Origin: a virus
IMG/VR virus record: IMGVR_UViG_3300028581_000047
Coordinates: 1-59,039 of that record
Length of the DNA stretch: 59,039 nt
Direction: 5' to 3' (one strand)
Shown here: positions 4,034 through 36,313 of the stretch, in pieces
Layout of the letters: each line of letters begins with the position of its first letter
Position numbering within the stretch: the first letter of the stretch is position 1
The notes under the pieces: generated by a model
The model's database searches: none
Told to the model about the DNA's origin: nothing
What the model saw: only the letters and a program-made list of their open reading frames with translations
Made by a program: the position numbers and the translations under genes

Positions 4034-4846
4034 ATGTCACAAGCATTAACATTTAATGGCAAAACTTTACACCCAGTTTCACACAACAATGAAATGTGGT
4101 TCACTGCGGCTGATTTGTCAAGAGCTTTGGGTTATGAGAAAGAAACTGCTGCAACCCAAATTTACGCCAGAAACAAGGGGGAATTCCTCGAAAGTATGTC
4201 AGTTGTGCTACACCATCAAATTGAGGGAGGTAACGAGCTAAACGGAAAATGTAAAGTGGGCTGCGGCACTCAATCTGAGTATCTAGGCGAATCTCGTGGC
4301 CTCCAGAAAATGACAAGAATTTTCAGTCTTCGTGGTTGTCACCTAATCGCTATGTTTGCAAAGACAGTAATTGCCAAGCAGTTTCGAGTTTGGGTGTTAA
4401 ATTTGATTGAGGGAAAGGTTCCTGAACCTGCGTACGGGTTGAAAGAAACCTTGGCTACAATTTCCGTACACAGTTATAGCGGAATTGAAGTGCTTGAGAA
4501 GAATGACTTTTTCAAGGTATCTCAGTTATGTTTAAAACAGGGGCGGTTTGCACAAGATTTTGTGGGTCAAAAACGTTATAAGCTAATGATGTCAAAATTC
4601 CCTGCGGCAAAAGTAGCGACGCACGGAGCTGAAAGAGGTACTTGGGTTCATAGGGGCGTGTTTGTCCCATTAGCTTATTGGTTGTCACAGGATTGTGGCG
4701 ATTGGGCGAGGGACTTGGTTGAGAAAAGCAATCCTGCCCCCGTCGTAACCAGCATTACATTAGCGGATTACATGACGAAGGTAATGCCTGAAGTTTTGAG
4801 AGCGTTTGGCGTGGACAAGAATTATGCTCGTGGTTTCTTAGTGTAG
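4034..4846 (+). CDS. Phage antirepressor, BRO-N plus KilA-N-like domain
   Basis: The 270-residue product has an N-terminal BRO-N type fold (residues about 5-120: MWFTAADLSRALGYEKE, then SLRGCHLIAMFAKT) and a C-terminal KilA-N-like region (about 135-240). The latter includes LKQGRFAQDFVGQKRYKLM and GVFVPLAYWLSQDCGDWARD. Such proteins usually bind DNA or a repressor and favour lytic development. It starts at ATG 4034 behind a GGAG site and the 3980-4008 promoter/operator. The gene is the parent of a tandem duplication: bases from 4183 onward are repeated from 4948. Confidence 0.8.
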   Translation: MSQALTFNGKTLHPVSHNNEMWFTAADLSRALGYEKETAATQIYARNKGEFLESMSVVLHHQIEGGNELNGKCKVGCGTQSEYLGESRGLQKMTRIFSLRGCHLIAMFAKTVIAKQFRVWVLNLIEGKVPEPAYGLKETLATISVHSYSGIEVLEKNDFFKVSQLCLKQGRFAQDFVGQKRYKLMMSKFPAAKVATHGAERGTWVHRGVFVPLAYWLSQDCGDWARDLVEKSNPAPVVTSITLADYMTKVMPEVLRAFGVDKNYARGFLV

Positions 4847-8245: not shown

Positions 8246-8251
8246 AGAGTG

Positions 8252-8293
8252 TTGCCCATTATGACAAGTGGGCAATGCCCTGTGCTTTACAGG
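8252..8293 (+). promoter_or_regulatory. Two-hairpin intergenic element, copy 3
   Basis: Hairpin 1 pairs TTGCCCATT (8252-8260) with AAGTGGGCAA (8266-8275). Hairpin 2 pairs CCTGT (8279-8283) with ACAGG (8289-8293) around GCTTT. The flank GAGTAAAGAGT before hairpin 1 and the string GCCCTGTGCTTT are shared with the copy at 9092-9135. It stands before an antirepressor gene. Confidence 0.6.
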
Positions 8294-8311
8294 AATAACT
8301 TGGAGAATGAA

Positions 8312-9079
8312 GTGAGTGAATTTTTTATAGCGATTAAAAAGTACCCAATTGGTTTGGTAGAAGTGAATGCGGTGAATGCTCGTGATTTGTGGACTGAACT
8401 TGAGGTTGGAACTACTTTCAGCAGATGGATTCAACGGAAGCTAGAGGAGTACAATTTCACGCAAGCTGTTGATTTTGTCGAAATTTCCAGTTTTGTCAAA
8501 GACGAGACTCGGTTTGGTGGGAAGCGTAAATCCATCGAGTACATCATCAGTCTCGACATGGCAAAAGAATTGGCGATGGTAGAGAGAACTGACAAAGGCA
8601 AGATTGCCAGACAGTATTTCATTGACTGTGAGCGAAGAGTGAAACTTGCGGATGAAATGGATGCTGTGCGTATCTTGGAGTTGAAGGCATACCTGGATAG
8701 GGTGCGTCGAGCTTTACTGTTGGACACGCCGCACACTTGGGAGAAGATTTACCCTGTTTCATTCTTTGAGGCGATAATGTCCTTGCATGGTCACACGTTC
8801 AACGGGAACAGTTCCACGCCGAGTTATTGTTCAAAGATAATTCGGGATTGGGTGTATCAGATTGTGTTGCCTGGTGAACTTTTGGCGGAGATAGACCGTA
8901 TTCAAGGTTCAGAAAAGAAGCATCAGTGGTTCACACAGCAGGGAGGTCGTCAAATCTTGGCTAAACAGGTCGAGAAGGTTGAGATGCTTGCGTTGGCAGC
9001 TGATTCACGGAAAGATTTTGAGCAGATGTGCAAAAAGGTATTTAAGAAACCGCTACAGCTTGGTTTGAGAGCGATGTAA
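8312..9079 (+). CDS. AntA/AntB-family antirepressor
   Basis: The N-terminal 90-100 residues match the AntA/AntB antirepressor pattern: VNARDLWTELEVGTTFSRWI, then a hydrophobic stretch with IEYIISLDMAKELAMVE and GKIARQYFIDCER. The rest (to residue 255) is a separate helical domain with no clear family. The start is set at GTG 8312, six bases behind GGAG; upstream in-frame ATG codons would run through the hairpin element. Such proteins inactivate phage repressors and allow lytic growth. Confidence 0.8.
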   Translation: MSEFFIAIKKYPIGLVEVNAVNARDLWTELEVGTTFSRWIQRKLEEYNFTQAVDFVEISSFVKDETRFGGKRKSIEYIISLDMAKELAMVERTDKGKIARQYFIDCERRVKLADEMDAVRILELKAYLDRVRRALLLDTPHTWEKIYPVSFFEAIMSLHGHTFNGNSSTPSYCSKIIRDWVYQIVLPGELLAEIDRIQGSEKKHQWFTQQGGRQILAKQVEKVEMLALAADSRKDFEQMCKKVFKKPLQLGLRAM

Positions 9080-15741: not shown

Positions 15742-15775
15742 AGGTATACCCCACAAATTGCTTTGTGGGGTATAC
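15742..15775 (+). promoter_or_regulatory. Strong 13-bp hairpin after the SNF2 gene
   Basis: GTATACCCCACAA pairs perfectly with TTGTGGGGTATAC around ATTGCT. No T-run follows, so it may act as an mRNA stabiliser, processing site or factor-dependent terminator instead of a simple intrinsic terminator. It stands 15 bases before the kissing-loop leader of the next gene. Confidence 0.5.
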
Positions 15776-15789
15776 TGCCCCACGAGTTT

Positions 15790-15904
15790 TTAGATTTGGA
15801 TTATAGCAGGTCTCATAAATCTAAGAGCTTAACGTTCTGCCCTTGCCTATTTGGTGCCTGCTATCACCGAGTTCGCAAGGGTTCTATATTTTCGGAGCAA
15901 TACC
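15790..15904 (+). ncRNA. Kissing-loop leader RNA, copy A
   Basis: The 115 bases before ATG 15905 can form three helices and a loop-loop contact. P1 is TTAGATTT (15790-15797) with AAATCTAA (15817-15824). A conserved unpaired linker CTTAACGTT (15828-15836) follows. P2 is CCCTTGC (15840-15846) with GCAAGGG (about 15874-15880). P3, inside P2, is GGTG (15853-15856) with CACC (15865-15868). The 8-base loop of P3, CCTGCTAT, is the exact complement of ATAGCAGG (15803-15810) in the P1 loop. The same fold with different paired bases precedes the antirepressor at 18061. No known family is recognised. It is probably a cis-regulatory element. Confidence 0.75.
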
Positions 15905-16630
15905 ATGTTACAAACAACAACAGAAGTAAAAACCATGTCTTCTACGGAAATCGTAAAAATCATTAACGACATGAGAGAAGACGGTACGGCGGAATTACGC
16001 CATGACAATTTCATGGTGAAGGTAGTAACTGTGCTGGGTGCAGAAGTAGCCCTAAAATTTCAGGGCTACTACAAAGCAGCAAATGGGAAACAAAATCCAT
16101 GCTACTACCTCCCAAAACGTGAAGCGAATTTGATGGTGATGTCAGAGTCATACAAAGTTCAAGCCGCTGTTTATGACAAGATGGTTGAGTTGGAAACCCA
16201 ACAGGTGAGACCACTTTCACAGCTTGAGATTTTGGGTCAGTCCGTTCAAATCTTAACTGAGCATGATAAACGATTGACAGCAGCAGAAGTTGAAGTAAAA
16301 CACATTTCTGCAAAAGTGGCAGACCTTCAAGTAAACTTACGGAACGGTGTTCCAGAAGGATACGTTTCAAAAGCAAATGCGCTTAGACTTTATGGTTGTG
16401 GGTTGAGCAAAGCAATTTTTGAAGCTGTGATGACCGAGAACGATGTTAAAACCCAACCGTATGTTCATTACGCTGAAGGTCATTCAGTCGCCACGTTTGG
16501 TTATTTAGAAAACGTTATTCCTGGGGTCGTTGAAAGTTTCATCGCAAGTTTAGAACAAGCTACAACGAATCAATGTTATTCACCCACGTTAAACAAGCGG
16601 TTGACCTACAGAAAACCCACATTGCAGTAA
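15905..16630 (+). CDS. Phage antirepressor/regulatory protein, Rha- or P22AR-like
   Basis: The 241-residue product has an N-terminal region typical of phage Rha/antirepressor proteins (residues about 35-100, with YYLPKREANLMVMSESYKVQ and KMVELE). A predicted coiled coil follows (about 105-160), then a C-terminal domain with YGCGLSKAIFEAVM. The start is ATG 15905, placed seven bases behind CGGAG; earlier in-frame ATG codons lie in the RNA leader. Its expression is probably controlled by the structured leader. Confidence 0.7.
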   Translation: MLQTTTEVKTMSSTEIVKIINDMREDGTAELRHDNFMVKVVTVLGAEVALKFQGYYKAANGKQNPCYYLPKREANLMVMSESYKVQAAVYDKMVELETQQVRPLSQLEILGQSVQILTEHDKRLTAAEVEVKHISAKVADLQVNLRNGVPEGYVSKANALRLYGCGLSKAIFEAVMTENDVKTQPYVHYAEGHSVATFGYLENVIPGVVESFIASLEQATTNQCYSPTLNKRLTYRKPTLQ

Positions 16631-16678
16631 GCATCACCCTTTACACAACATTCATTTTAAAATAATTGGAGAAGTATC

Positions 16679-17341
16679 ATGGCTTTAAATTTAGTAGGTT
16701 CTACAGCAGCATTCAACAACACTTCAGTAGACGAAGCATTCCCTGCGGTAGTTTCAGAAGCCCCAACAACGTTGGCGTTAGTAGCTGAACCGTCACAACG
16801 TAACAGTGTGAATTTGGCGGATTTAGAGGCAGCAGGCTTTGCTGGTTTGGTATTTGACTGGACTGCCTTCCCAATGATTTCGTTGAAGACAGATGGTCAG
16901 TTTGAGGACTCGAACGGTCAGACTTATGGCAAAGGGTTCGAGTGTAAAGTTATTGGGTCTAAAATCAAGTATGCTCACAGCTTTACAGGTTCTACAAACC
17001 CCAAAACAGATTTGATTTATTCTTATGACAAAATCACTTCTACAAGTGGTAAAGATGTAGTAAGCTTTGAGTCGGATTTGAGAGCGGCAGGGAAAGAAGT
17101 CACTTGCAAAGAGTATCTTGAAGTGATGGTCGAGTTAGTAGCTCCAGGCGAGTCGCATGATGGTGAGTTTAGATTAGTGTCAGTGTCGCCAACATCGAAA
17201 GGTAGATTCTCCAGTCTTATCTTTAAGTTGGTACAAAAAGGGATTAAGGACACAGCTGTAATCCGAATGGAAGTGGGCGAAAAGGTTCGCAACGTTGCTA
17301 ACCCCTTCTACCCTTGGAGTTTCGTGTTAGTCTCAGGCTAA
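16679..17341 (+). CDS. Hypothetical protein, possible ssDNA-binding protein (220 aa)
   Basis: It starts at ATG 16679 behind AATTGGAG. The N-terminal 40 residues are low in charge and flexible; the rest is beta-rich (LKTDGQFEDSNGQTYGKGFE, SKIKYAHSFTG). Length, fold impression and position between replication genes would suit a phage single-strand binding protein, but I see no OB-fold signature, so this remains a guess. It is followed by the long structured noncoding region. Confidence 0.6.
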   Translation: MALNLVGSTAAFNNTSVDEAFPAVVSEAPTTLALVAEPSQRNSVNLADLEAAGFAGLVFDWTAFPMISLKTDGQFEDSNGQTYGKGFECKVIGSKIKYAHSFTGSTNPKTDLIYSYDKITSTSGKDVVSFESDLRAAGKEVTCKEYLEVMVELVAPGESHDGEFRLVSVSPTSKGRFSSLIFKLVQKGIKDTAVIRMEVGEKVRNVANPFYPWSFVLVSG

Positions 17342-17533
17342 CCCAGATGTTCACTGCCGAACAGGCAGCTTAGGAAATAATTCCTGCCCGTTCTTCCGAG
17401 GGTTAAATCGGAAGACTCCCACTGAAGGGTCATAGAGAATCTTTCATTGGTAGTTAAACTGCCAACTAACTGGAACTGGGGAGTTCCTCGCGTTAGGTGA
17501 CTTTCCCTGCGGTAATCTGTGGGGACTTATATT

Positions 17534-17609
17534 GGGTCAGTATCACAAAGGTTCGTGGAGCGTACTCATAATGCGTAGTATGTTGGTTCAAGTCCAACCT
17601 GACCCACCA
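17534..17609 (+). tRNA. tRNA with CAT anticodon (Met or Ile2)
   Basis: A full cloverleaf with encoded CCA is visible. Acceptor GGGTCAG (17534-17540) pairs with CTGACCC (17599-17605), followed by ACCA. The D-arm is TCAC/GTGG around AAAGGTTC. The anticodon arm is GCGTA/TGCGT with loop CTCATAA. The variable loop is AGTAT, and the T-arm is GTTGG/CCAAC with loop TTCAAGT. The anticodon CAT can belong to elongator Met or, after lysidine modification, to Ile reading ATA. The T-loop resembles the E. coli Ile2 tRNA more than elongator Met. Wobble pairs in the D- and anticodon stems make it slightly weak. Confidence 0.88.
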
Positions 17610-17885
17610 AACACACCCCCCTTGTTGGGTGTAAGTAGCAAGGCGTGTAGCGGAATCACGAAAGTCACCGCAGCAGTAATGGTAGAAAAGGCTACGGAGT
17701 TGTGTTCTCCATAGTAACGAGAGTTCATGGCGATAGTTTCCTCTGATTAACTTGCGCCGCCTTTAGTAAAACTCACTTAACTTCTGCGGAATATCGCAGT
17801 CTAGTTCATTTTGGTAAACCTAGATAGAGTGTGTTTTACTAAGGGTTAAACCTTACAGCTTTACCATTAGTATCTCCTGAACTCA

Positions 17886-17909
17886 AGGGATTTTCGGATC
17901 CCTCTTTTT
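17886..17909 (+). terminator. Intrinsic terminator of the structured RNA
   Basis: AGGGAT pairs with ATCCCT around TTTCGG and is followed by a T-run (CTTTTT). It gives the large noncoding RNA a defined 3' end and separates it from the leader RNA of the next antirepressor. Confidence 0.75.
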
Positions 17910-17945
17910 GAAACGCATTTCTTGTGAGTGCTTTTCAAAAAGTCT

Positions 17946-18060
17946 TTAGATTTTGCGTGTGAGAGCGTTCATAAATCTAAAAACTTAACGTTTACCCTTA
18001 TTCGGTTAGTATCTCTCACTACTTGCTTGATAAGGGTTTTTCTTTTTATGGAGTTTCAAA
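17946..18060 (+). ncRNA. Kissing-loop leader RNA, copy B
   Basis: This is the second copy of the leader fold, also exactly 115 bases before its ATG (18061). P1 is TTAGATTT (17946-17953) with AAATCTAA (17973-17980). The linker CTTAACGTT (17984-17992) is identical to copy A. P2 is CCCTTAT (17995-18001) with ATAAGGG (18030-18036). P3 is AGTA (18008-18011) with TACT (18020-18023). The P3 loop contains CTCTCAC, the complement of GTGAGAG (17959-17965) in the P1 loop. P2 is followed by TTTTTCTTTTT, so here it could also work as a terminator stem just before the GGAG site, suggesting attenuation. Confidence 0.75.
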
Positions 18061-18837
18061 ATGTTACAAGTATTTAATTTCGATACCAACACCGTCCGAG
18101 TAGTTATGGATGAAAACGGCGAACCTTTATTTGTCGCAAAAGATGTTGCGGTAGCTTTGGGATATTCCGACACAGTGAATGCAATAAAACAGCATTGTGA
18201 CGAGGGGGTGGTGAAACACCACCCCCTTCAAACGGCAGGTGGAGTACAACAAGTTAGAGTAATTGATGAACCTGATGTGTATTCTTTGATATTTGGTTCA
18301 AAACTTGAATCGTCAAAACGCTTCAAAAAGTGGGTGACTTCGGAAGTGTTGCCAACAATTCGTAAAACGGGTAGCTATGCAATCGTTAAGCCTGAGCATG
18401 ATTTTGAGTTGGCAAAACAAACTGGGCTACTTTCTCCTGCTTATGTTGACATGGCAAAAGCATTTGGGTTTGATGGTAATCAAGCCTATTTGTCAGCAGA
18501 TAAAGCTATTAAGCAAATCACAGGTTATTCTCCACTCTCATTGCTCGGTGCAGAACTCGTCTCACCTGTACAAGCTGCTGTTTTAGTTCCAAGCGACATT
18601 GCAGACAGACTGGGTTTAAAGCGGCAGGAACCAAATAAACTGTTGACGGCTCAAGGGTTCCAGACGAATCACAGAAACCACAAAGATGCTATTTACTACG
18701 AATTGACTGAAAAAGGAAAACAGTATGGTGAGTATGTTGATACAGGTTTGAAACATTCAGATGGTTCACCAAGAAAACAAATCAAGTGGTTCAGCACAAT
18801 TTTAGAAGTTTTACAAACAGAGGCGCTTTCAAAATGA
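18061..18837 (+). CDS. BRO-N antirepressor with KilAC-like C-terminal domain
   Basis: The 258-residue protein begins with a BRO-N domain (residues about 1-110: QVFNFDTNTVRVVMDENGEP, FVAKDVAVALGYSD, then VTSEVLPTIRKTGSYA). A C-terminal domain (about 120-255) with MAKAFGFDGNQAYLSADKA follows, as in phage KilAC-type antirepressors. It is a paralogue of the gene at 24197. It starts at ATG 18061 behind GGAG and a structured leader RNA. A role in repressor inactivation or gene control is inferred from the family. Confidence 0.85.
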   Translation: MLQVFNFDTNTVRVVMDENGEPLFVAKDVAVALGYSDTVNAIKQHCDEGVVKHHPLQTAGGVQQVRVIDEPDVYSLIFGSKLESSKRFKKWVTSEVLPTIRKTGSYAIVKPEHDFELAKQTGLLSPAYVDMAKAFGFDGNQAYLSADKAIKQITGYSPLSLLGAELVSPVQAAVLVPSDIADRLGLKRQEPNKLLTAQGFQTNHRNHKDAIYYELTEKGKQYGEYVDTGLKHSDGSPRKQIKWFSTILEVLQTEALSK

Positions 18838-20773: not shown

Positions 20774-20937
20774 TTCCAGAATTCGTAAGAATTGCCCACC
20801 CGACACCCTTGTTTAACGCTCGAGACATTTGCGAGTTAGCAGGGTTGACAAACAGCAGTGGTTTATATCATGTAGTACAGCGTGGCGCGTTTCCGAAACA
20901 CGACTTAACGTTAAAGAAAGCTAATTTTTTGGCGTAA
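20770..20937 (+). CDS. Small HTH-like protein (55 aa)
   Basis: A short frame overlaps the upstream stop as ATGA and ends 36 bases before the polymerase gene. Residues 16-45 (NARDICELAGLTNSSGLYH plus VVQRGAFPKHD) look like an AlpA/excisionase-type winged helix-turn-helix. It could be a small transcription factor. A similar short protein follows the sbcD-like gene at 27977. Confidence 0.6.
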   Translation: MIPEFVRIAHPTPLFNARDICELAGLTNSSGLYHVVQRGAFPKHDLTLKKANFLA

Positions 20938-23900: not shown

Positions 23901-24141
23901 ACTACTGGCACCGATTTACGATGAGGTCGTTATTTCTGTGCATTCTTCTCAAGCTATATCTTTAATCAAAGAAGTGTATGCAGCTATGACTGTAGGTATT
24001 CCAGGGGTTCCTGTACCAATGCTTGCTAACCCTAGTCTTGGGGTTAATTTTGGAGATCAGATTGAAGTTCTTGATGACTGTAACCAAGTTTTGACAGATG
24101 AGTTAATTCAAATTGCAATTGAGAAAGCACTTGCTAACTGA
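20974..24141 (+). CDS. polA: DNA polymerase I-type phage replicative polymerase
   Basis: The 1055-residue protein combines three activities. The N-terminal 290 residues form a 5'-3' exonuclease (VEADDVIAYL, SVDADLIALA, VGDTSDGYGGVRNFGP). A 3'-5' exonuclease follows (YVSLDWETW near 344-352, YGADDPLVTAH near 502). The polymerase part has motif A IDFDGEELR near 787, motif B RKVAKQVGFASAYG near 853-866 and motif C IYDEVVIS near 980. Motif A usually reads DYSQIELR and motif C usually has His before Asp-Glu; both differ here, but the catalytic Asp and Glu are kept. Phage polymerases often lack the 5'-3' exonuclease, so the full fusion is notable. It starts at ATG 20974 with GGAGAAAGG. Confidence 0.92.
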   Translation: MTQPIYALLDFNACVMHSYNSGTDPDAMLIEGKNVNTAGYGLQIFIERYFLNVASYVPLNHIIVVHDDLLRDKDGKYTDYRTLYYPDYKKARRMGKYSGEAKALCKAFLTAMGVPQVSLANVEADDVIAYLSMGLPGHKHVYSVDADLIALAQYEGVSVFQKLELKSDYKGIPPHLITLYKSLVGDTSDGYGGVRNFGPAKWDEFDIKQLEFFDLVVRTKAWDKLNIAYERSPTKSLKLLIDGKNEWVMAYHILAKMHPEFVDSKPTETFYIDEAGEQQPVPSKHFNRLKWVKKVPSRDALLAVLNGCGTNYLIDKLAKFLPTQTLITPGNLDVEKIKRQINNSRYVSLDWETWQVPNENFKKANQGKEFVDMLGSTIAGMGLTLGENLEHTYYLQFDHADTENNLDKQVLLDLLGYIPATMPVVCFNSYFETSVLIAEFGASLPIMYDPMVMHKHIDELADEHGLKSLSKRYLGAEQLHYEDVIEKGKTMQDYSGQHVFQYGADDPLVTAHLYDLFYIILNLEKTWEFVRDCEFPTVQLLAESYVEGVSFDLEAVEQQRSEDQAVYDTCIARMRELLGTNRIPMSDLKRHAATLYLADINPKGSEDDEEVLALADQFVYEEYREVPPEGKQKLSRWVGTELNLDSPKQMQYLFYGTLGLPIRIRDFKISETRKKKNLEGTPQVNTDAIDEAIFNGDAVGWKREVLECFSKAKKCATRVKLFYAKYPLWVHPKDGNVHPRFNSTGTESRRPTGGSPNLLQMSKKGDGVKVRRAIVPNRNKGHDLIVAIDFDGEELRVLGGLSGDKNLLSCYVGDHLRDAHAIVAAQIMGCEYEEFVANRKSSDKAVAKKHDDIRKVAKQVGFASAYGCGVNKLSRIIKEDLETTEKYLNAKKTVYSRLEDWKVEVKEELQEKGRVVTQLGCYRHAFDHYTKSNSDIKSYYERSAVNYLVQGLCAEYLKLVLSNLYKSKVFQRHSAVLLAPIYDEVVISVHSSQAISLIKEVYAAMTVGIPGVPVPMLANPSLGVNFGDQIEVLDDCNQVLTDELIQIAIEKALAN

Positions 24142-24151
24142 TTTACTATTT

Positions 24152-24177
24152 GCGGTAGCATCTGCTGCCGCCTTTTT
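24152..24177 (+). terminator. Intrinsic terminator after the polymerase gene
   Basis: GCGGTAGC and GCTGCCGC form a tight stem followed by CTTTTTATA. It partly insulates the downstream antirepressor, whose TTTGGAG site follows within 15 bases. Confidence 0.75.
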
Positions 24178-24196
24178 ATATTTGGAGATATTTGAG

Positions 24197-24952
24197 ATGA
24201 GCAATTTACAAGTTTTTAACTTTGATGCAAACACAGCAATCCGCACATCAATGGTTGATGGAGTTATTTGGTTTGTGGCAAAAGACATGGCGGAAGCGTT
24301 GGAATACCCTGAGTCTAAAAACGCACTACGGCTTTGCAAAAATTCCAATTCGCCCCCAAATGGCGAATTAAACAAAATCAACGACTTACCTCCAGCAACT
24401 AAGTGGATTAACGAATCTGACCTGTATCGCTTGATTATGCACTCAACAAAACCTGAAGCCGAAAAGTTCCAAGACTGGGTGTGTGAAGAAGTGTTACCCA
24501 CAATCCGTAAAACTGGCTCGTATTCTTTTGTACCAGAAGTAAAAGGTACTGAGATTTCTCAAACAGCTATTGCAATGCTTGACCTTGCAAAGGCTTACGG
24601 ATTTGAAGGTAATCAAGCCTTAATCTCCGCTGACAAAGCCACGTTTAAACTGATTGGGCAATCACCTTTGAAACTGTTGGGTGCGGAGCTTATTTCTGAT
24701 CAAGAGCGGCATTTAAACCCCACTGAAGTTGGGAGACGTTTTGACCCTGCACTTAGCGCAATCAAGATTAACCTTAAACTGGCTGAAAAGGGTTTACAGT
24801 TCAAAAATGAAGAAGACAAGTGGATGCCTACTGAGCAGGGAAAAGAGTTTGGTGTCTTAATTGACACAGAAAAAAGACGTAGCAATGGAACACCAGTTCA
24901 GCAGTTGAAGTGGAAAGAGTCAGTTATTTCAAAATTAGGAGAATCAAAATGA
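24197..24952 (+). CDS. BRO-N antirepressor, paralogue of the 18061 gene
   Basis: ATG 24197 has TTTGGAG upstream; an earlier in-frame start lies inside the polymerase gene and terminator and is rejected. The BRO-N domain covers residues 1-110 (QVFNFDANTAI, WFVAKDMAEALEYPE, VCEEVLPTIRKTGSYS). The C-terminal domain has LDLAKAYGFEGNQALISADK and SPLKLLGAELIS, closely matching the gene at 18061, with variation in between. The stop overlaps the next start. Role as for other antirepressors. Confidence 0.85.
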   Translation: MSNLQVFNFDANTAIRTSMVDGVIWFVAKDMAEALEYPESKNALRLCKNSNSPPNGELNKINDLPPATKWINESDLYRLIMHSTKPEAEKFQDWVCEEVLPTIRKTGSYSFVPEVKGTEISQTAIAMLDLAKAYGFEGNQALISADKATFKLIGQSPLKLLGAELISDQERHLNPTEVGRRFDPALSAIKINLKLAEKGLQFKNEEDKWMPTEQGKEFGVLIDTEKRRSNGTPVQQLKWKESVISKLGESK

Positions 24953-35677: not shown

Positions 35678-36313
35678 ATGATTATTGTTGTCGGCGGGGA
35701 AAAGGGTGGTACAGGGAAAACAACGTTAGCTACGAACTTGGCGGTACTTCGTAGAGATGCAGGTCACGATGTATTACTTCTTGATGCAGACCCACAAGGA
35801 AGTGCGAACAATTGGTCACAGTTCCGTTTGAACACCGACCTCAACCCAATCCCCTGTCTCCAAAAACTTGGCAACATCAAAGCCGATATTGCAGACCTGA
35901 AAACACGCTATGGCGATATTTTTATCGACACAGGTGGAAGGAACTCGGAAGAACTGCGTTCTGCGCTCGTTGTAGCCGATGTTTTCATCACACCTATCCA
36001 ACCATCACAGTTTGACATTTGGTCGCTCTCAACGGTCAATGAGTTAGTTAAAATACCCAAACTGCTAAACCCTGCCATGCGTTCTTACGTTATAGCTAGT
36101 CGGTCAGTAACTAATACAGGGCAACAGGAGCTGATGGAGATGCGTTCACTCCTTGTTGAGTTTCCTGAATTAACATTGCTTCGTACTATTATTCGAGATC
36201 GTGTGGCTTTTCGTAAAGCTGCCAAATTTGGAAAAGTTGTGACTGAGCTTTTACCTGAGGATAAGAAAGCGTCAGAAGAGATAAGCGCGATGTACGTTGA
36301 AGTTTTTGGTTAG
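35678..36313 (+). CDS. parA: ParA-family partition ATPase
   Basis: The 211-residue deviant Walker-type ATPase has GGEKGGTGKTT (6-16, motif A with the signature Lys), LLLDADPQGS near 33-42 (motif A'), and IFIDTGG near 86-92. It lacks a long N-terminal HTH, so it belongs to the short ParA (type Ib) or MipZ/ParF-like group, which works with a small ribbon-helix-helix partner. It should segregate the plasmid form. It starts at ATG 35678 with AGGAG. Confidence 0.92.
   Translation: MIIVVGGEKGGTGKTTLATNLAVLRRDAGHDVLLLDADPQGSANNWSQFRLNTDLNPIPCLQKLGNIKADIADLKTRYGDIFIDTGGRNSEELRSALVVADVFITPIQPSQFDIWSLSTVNELVKIPKLLNPAMRSYVIASRSVTNTGQQELMEMRSLLVEFPELTLLRTIIRDRVAFRKAAKFGKVVTELLPEDKKASEEISAMYVEVFG

Follow-up and report, generated by a model that had tools for sequence, protein, structure and literature searches.

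A class of putative leader RNAs with complementary hairpin loops, mostly in front of viral antirepressor genes

RNA-based control of lysis has so far been described in few lineages (C4 of P1/P7, CI of P4, and IsrK of Gifsy). In ColE1, RNA I and RNA II arise from opposite DNA strands and recognize each other by a fully paired 7-nt loop-loop kissing interaction, giving incompatibility-like codes. C4 of P1/P7 is a short RNA upstream of the antirepressor, with a short variable loop complementary to sequence within the same transcription unit (PMC5320573). Transcription of the short RNA IsrK begins at a promoter and stops at an intrinsic terminator; some transcripts continue into the antirepressor operon downstream, and IsrK acts in trans on this longer transcript (PMC4825925). 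The CI RNA of P4 (seqA/seqB/seqC immunity) is leader-encoded, is complementary to sites in the same leader, and acts by premature termination before the replication genes (PMC4825925). Precedents of both signs exist, C4 and P4 CI being repressors and IsrK an activator (PMC5320573, PMC4825925).

We analyzed two structured leaders located before antirepressor genes of a metagenomic virus, a leader class for which no earlier description was found in the open-access literature, to which our search was limited.

Two leaders in a probable phage-plasmid

The window is the whole 59,039-nt stretch analyzed, IMG/VR record IMGVR_UViG_3300028581_000047. The virus is probably a phage-plasmid because it encodes a Rep3 plasmid initiator (34254-35324) and a ParA partition protein (35678-36313). 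At least five antirepressor-type genes are present (4034-4846, 8249-9079, 15905-16630, 18061-18837, and 24113-24952), and a short Rha-like gene lies at 18834.

Leader A (15790-15882, + strand) precedes the ATG at 15905 of an antirepressor gene assigned to PHROG 63, anti-repressor Ant (15905..16630, +), and leader B (17946-18037, +) precedes the ATG at 18061 of a Bro-N antirepressor gene (18061..18837, +; PF02498, PHROG 130). Both leaders contain two successive hairpins, H1 and H2, whose loops are complementary over 7-8 nt. With scores of 75.5 and 69.5, they are the top two hairpin-hairpin kissing arrangements on both strands of the whole window, the next scoring 57.5.

H1 consists in both copies of an 8-bp P1a stem, a 3'-side bulge, a 3-bp apical stem, and a loop. 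The P1a arms are TTAGATTT/AAATCTAA in copy A (15790-15797/15817-15824, +) as well as in copy B (17946-17953/17973-17980, +). The apical stem P1b is GGA/TCT in H1 of copy A (15790..15824, +), with a loop carrying ATAGCAGG (15803..15810, +), and GCG/CGT in H1 of copy B (17946..17980, +), with a loop carrying GTGAGAG (17959..17965, +). H2 is a single 18-position hairpin with an 8-nt loop, paired at 16/18 positions in each copy (15839..15882 in A and 17994..18037 in B, both +). Its loop is CCTGCTAT in copy A (15857-15864, +), a perfect 8-nt complement of ATAGCAGG, and TCTCTCAC in copy B (18012-18019, +), where CTCTCAC (18013-18019) is a perfect 7-nt complement of GTGAGAG. The hairpins are separated by the linker GAGCTTAACGTTCT in copy A (15825..15838, +), in which a small hairpin AGAGC/GTTCT is possible, and by AAACTTAACGTTT in copy B (17981..17993, +), in which AAAC/GTTT could pair.

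The shared architecture, identical P1, and loop-loop complementarity described in the initial annotation of this DNA were confirmed in sequence and coordinates, and some details required revision. The base pairing of the P2 and P3 helices was read correctly; the two are parts of one hairpin, H2, and not independent helices. The arms of P1 were as described, and its apical stem had been missed. The linker sequence CTTAACGTT is indeed common to both window copies, but the argument for its conservation does not hold, as it is missing from all other instances reported below. Three more + strand copies of CTTAACGTT occur in the window, at 20904, 42291, and 56966, in surroundings that are not leader-like, with none on the - strand.

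Other elements lie nearby. Upstream of leader B is a solitary type I-F CRISPR repeat with no array (17349-17376; Rfam CRISPR-DR4, 45 bits), a candidate for an RNA anti-CRISPR (Racr) as described in PMC10651486. The long noncoding stretch before leader B also contains a tRNA gene (17534-17606, 55.8 bits) about 81-82% identical to Aeromonas phage tRNA-Met. Another Bro-N-type antirepressor gene is immediately preceded by a terminator-like hairpin, GCGGTAG-CATCTG-CTGCCGC (24152-24171), with a T-run; CAGATG upstream matches the loop of this hairpin, but there is no convincing H1.

Further instances and covariation

Homology searches and scans identified seven instances in five viral records besides the window, for a total of nine in six. 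All are metagenomic viral records, and at six they are few; two copies each are present in three of them. Every instance (nine of nine) combines H1, a terminator-like H2, and orthogonal 6-8-nt loop complementarity, the features by which we define the class, and is immediately followed by a start codon on the same strand. The genes behind the module are seven antirepressors and one replication initiator, all of them lytic-switch genes, and one gene without known function (L314). The antirepressors are of the ANT/Rha-like type behind window copy A, L003, L274, L283, and L516, and of the Bro-N type behind window copy B and L433. When whole records were read, second copies came to light in two: one on the minus strand of L513 (about 19521-19413), flanked by a Cro-like gene and the replication initiator, and one at 977-1043 of L516, upstream of a Rha/ANT antirepressor.

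The first homologue of the 15905 antirepressor, in L003 (66% identity), is preceded by a leader with identical P1, unrelated loops (CTACGAC:GTCGTAG), and a different linker. L433 was found through relatives of the Bro-N protein, and its Bro-N gene shares 62% identity with the copy B gene within the matched part. L003 and L433 have flanking genes in common (81% identity for one protein) and yet differ in the antirepressor family behind the leader, so a replacement of the gene downstream of the module must have taken place. A scan for relatives of these two phages returned only L003 and L433. Linkers between the hairpins range from 8 to 21 nt, with 8-14 nt in most, and the linker of copy A is not conserved outside the window.

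The detector used in the scans was written for two consecutive hairpins with complementary loops, with thresholds set during exploration; a covariance model built from the two window copies provided an independent check. Over about 100 loci, mostly related antirepressors, L003, L274, L314, and window copies A and B outranked all shuffled sequence (best shuffle 61.5). L283 scored 64.0, amid a few chance matches in coding regions, its H2 being longer than the detector saw, and was confirmed by the covariance model. A terminator-filtered scan gave 30 matches in 3.4 Mb and none in shuffles, against 17 low-complexity matches in 3.8 Mb of unrelated natural DNA, and we therefore required other evidence for any score below about 60.

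The covariance model from copies A and B (R1) recovered L274, L513, L433, L283, and L003 at E values of about 1e-6 (6e-7 to 5e-6), and missed both L516 copies, the most divergent. In an alignment of seven instances, 98.7% of cells are paired versus 79.8% in shuffled alignments, and two-sided change occurs in 16 of 23 pairs versus 5.2, although the alignment was fitted to the covariance model and thus leans towards it; sliding the partner by one column lowers pairing to 43-52%. A rebuilt model (R2) found L314, absent from the training set, as the sole new significant match in 0.55 Mb, and in about 1.1 Mb gave no new match besides L314 at E below 0.3.

H2 arms pair at 148/154 positions with their own partners and at about half once the arms are swapped, and two-sided change is found in 15/15 inner columns. 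The H2 cells comprise 132 Watson-Crick pairs, 16 G-U pairs, and 2 A-C mismatches, an imbalance that places the selection on the transcribed strand and the structure in RNA of the coding strand. The seven further instances show that shape has been kept and sequence has not.

The nine loop pairs are essentially orthogonal. Each cognate pair has 6-8 complementary nucleotides, compared with a mean of 2.8 and a maximum of 6, the latter between two different records, for non-cognate pairs; none of 200,000 random reassignments of loop partners reached the true total. Mean loop duplex energy is -9.6 kcal/mol for cognate and -2.9 kcal/mol for non-cognate pairs. Cross-pairing is weak inside each two-copy record, and the codes are orthogonal in all three on which this argument rests. 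Given six records, the orthogonality could result from drift with compensation rather than from selection against cross-talk.

These results bear on the initial proposal that two antirepressor genes are each preceded by a member of one structured leader class with a covarying kissing loop. Two copies alone were insufficient to establish covariation; the seven further instances do establish it, and the proposal survives a search for covarying homologues, carried out in part with the covariance model suggested at the time.

Other searches gave no further members. The exact P1 plus linker pattern was absent from the viral contigs searched, and the P1 pattern alone gave chance-level AT-rich matches in viral contigs, genome contigs, and 369 genomes. 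A blastn search of the leader region against phages and plasmids returned coding and tRNA matches only, and the antirepressor profile had no match in the 369 genomes. The leader is absent beside antirepressor homologues in AP22, fEg-Aba01, yong2, Midgardsormr38, CF183a, Ostro, and other named phages. Two weak R2 matches in the 369 genomes (E 0.002-0.003), neither with complementary loops, were rejected as chance. Pseudomonas phage KIL1 (L246, 1390-1458) has a doubtful, weak candidate before an antirepressor, with the terminator-hairpin loop CCTCTGG and CCAGAG upstream. On the minus strand of L518 (1144-1254), a very long hairpin is followed by a hairpin with the complementary stretch TTCGCAC:GTGCGAA and no T-run.

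A possible short RNA limiting read-through

A TATAAT-like hexamer (5-6/6 match) is present 8-13 nt upstream of H1 in 8/9 instances, versus 6.3% of random window positions. In copy A it is TATACT (15771..15776, +), 13 nt before P1 and a putative promoter element; copy B has no clear -10 upstream of H1. The 5' end of H2 reads about ACCC or GCCC, and its 3' end is GGG followed by a T-run, like an intrinsic terminator; the U-tract is weak in copy A and is TTTTCTTTTTA in copy B (18038..18048, +), directly after H2. A Shine-Dalgarno-like CGGAG of the antirepressor gene follows in copy A (15893..15897, +). These signals are consistent with a transcription start near the foot of H1 and a frequent end after H2, and the most fitting reading of the module is one of promoter, short RNA, and attenuator combined. 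The earlier suggestion of attenuation at a lytic-switch gene is probable.

The reading that we favour, and consider reasonably probable, is that of a self-contained RNA control module in which a short RNA keeps read-through low for leaders of the same code and the lytic genes off. A promoter near the foot of H1 would start transcription of each copy, and the RNA would fold into H1 and then into H2 as an intrinsic terminator. Most transcripts would stop after H2 as an RNA of roughly 100 nt, with the antirepressor being reached by read-through transcripts only. The 7-8-nt loops of H1 and H2 would be a private recognition code, with which hypervariable, essentially orthogonal loops next to a conserved P1 would fit; the short RNA would limit read-through of same-code leaders through kissing between the loops of H1 and H2, whether in trans, in cis, or in both ways. 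Lytic genes would be kept off until this balance changes, comparable to the situation with C4 RNA of P1/P7, P4 CI RNA, and IsrK; the direction in which pairing would alter read-through and a role in immunity are predictions. More tentatively, though still as a possibility worth stating, the module may serve as a phage-identity RNA barcode, the short RNA recognizing same-code leaders only, so that resident phages, each with several independent codes, would keep the lytic switch of like phages silent. Sensor, messenger, and terminator would then be united in one self-complementary RNA of two hairpins, free to combine with antirepressors of unrelated families.

The loop partners always lie in one leader, 8-21 nt apart, and the 7-8-nt kissing loops can pair along their whole length, as would be expected of a purely cis-acting kinetic attenuator in which the loop of H1 captures that of H2 as it emerges and either slows or promotes closing of the terminator, the loops drifting with compensation. 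We regard such an attenuator as rather unlikely, since unrelated codes occur in every two-copy record, and A, B, and L003 have one and the same P1 although their H2 loops agree at only 3-4/8 positions, suggesting loop diversification. Geometry also bears on the question. By our arithmetic, stacked H1, kiss, and H2 would comprise about 38 bp and span near 100 A, requiring the linker to be at least about 15 nt long; because most linkers have 8-14 nt, the full cis complex would be strained unless the conserved P1 bulge bends, which mildly favours pairing in trans or during transcription. A short RNA that instead raises antirepressor expression in trans, giving positive feedback on induction, would have its model in IsrK, which shares the order of promoter, terminator, read-through, and antirepressor and activates in trans (PMC4825925). 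IsrK, however, opens the translational block of an upstream ORF, whereas here the Shine-Dalgarno sequence directly follows the U-tract with no such ORF, and an activator of this type seems decidedly improbable.

The remaining two explanations have very little probability and were rejected. P1 (TTAGATTT/AAATCTAA) is a perfect inverted repeat kept in three leaders, as an operator or origin acting as DNA might be, but the excess of G-U pairs over A-C mismatches in H2 (16 vs 2), the strict strand bias with the gene, the U-tract solely on the 3' side, and the loop-loop complementarity all argue for RNA. The compact, pseudoknot-like fold within a 5' leader might suggest a ligand-binding riboswitch controlling the lytic switch; over the nine instances there are, however, no conserved unpaired nucleotides, and the loop code is hypervariable. 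The ligand or protein sensing initially envisaged is likewise unsupported, with no conserved pocket-like sequence outside the base-paired parts.

If the favoured reading of a short RNA limiting read-through is correct, the leaders would form a further, more compact family of lysis control, with antisense loop and terminator target in about 100 nt. The family would accompany antirepressors of several kinds as well as a replication gene, with multiple orthogonal copies per phage. It would allow loop-code specificity in phage immunity to be tested directly and would supply a few natural attenuators that are orthogonal to one another.

Comparison with described RNA systems

The leaders gave no match to Rfam C4 (RF01695) or c4-a1b1 (RF03163), either at the gathering threshold or at E up to 5-10, or to isrK (RF01394); the Gifsy-1 positive control yielded all three. 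The RNA plan, noted from the outset as unfamiliar, has no Rfam match even at permissive thresholds. Two int-alpA RNAs (RF02996) are present in L516 (6216-6280 and 9913-9978), the first just before the antirepressor. A loop of this first RNA, TTCGCCC, could pair with GGGCGAA ahead of the start codon, which suggests antisense control in the manner of C4. The int-alpA RNA, which precedes the antirepressor in L314/L516, has a different fold, and occurs in the same record as the leader class with no overlap.

The leaders resemble C4, compared here in the Gifsy-1 layout, in their position before an antirepressor and in a variable-loop specificity that is predicted here. C4 has three stems, two antisense loops, and RNase P excision, whereas nine of nine leaders have two hairpins and one antisense loop, and the target loop after it belongs to the terminator hairpin itself. 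With IsrK of Gifsy-1 they would share the layout of promoter, intrinsic terminator, and antirepressor read-through predicted by their signals, but not activation via an upstream ORF, and the Gifsy-1 isrK locus has no comparable H1/H2 loop complementarity and is matched by neither R1 nor R2. P4 CI, compared by description only, is like the leaders in being complementary to sequence of its own leader and in premature termination, which is predicted here from the loop complementarity and terminator shape of the leaders; its complementary sites lie outside CI, the RNA is made by processing, and it acts in trans, whereas the partners here are adjacent hairpins and trans action is a prediction. Loop-loop kissing would be shared with ColE1 RNA I/RNA II, but the leader partners come from one transcript. 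We class the leaders as an RNA family that is new while its kind of function is known, like C4, c4-a1b1, and isrK in layout without being members of those families, and by analogy we infer a C4/P4-CI/IsrK-like logic in which a short RNA would limit read-through into lytic genes and the loops would give specificity.
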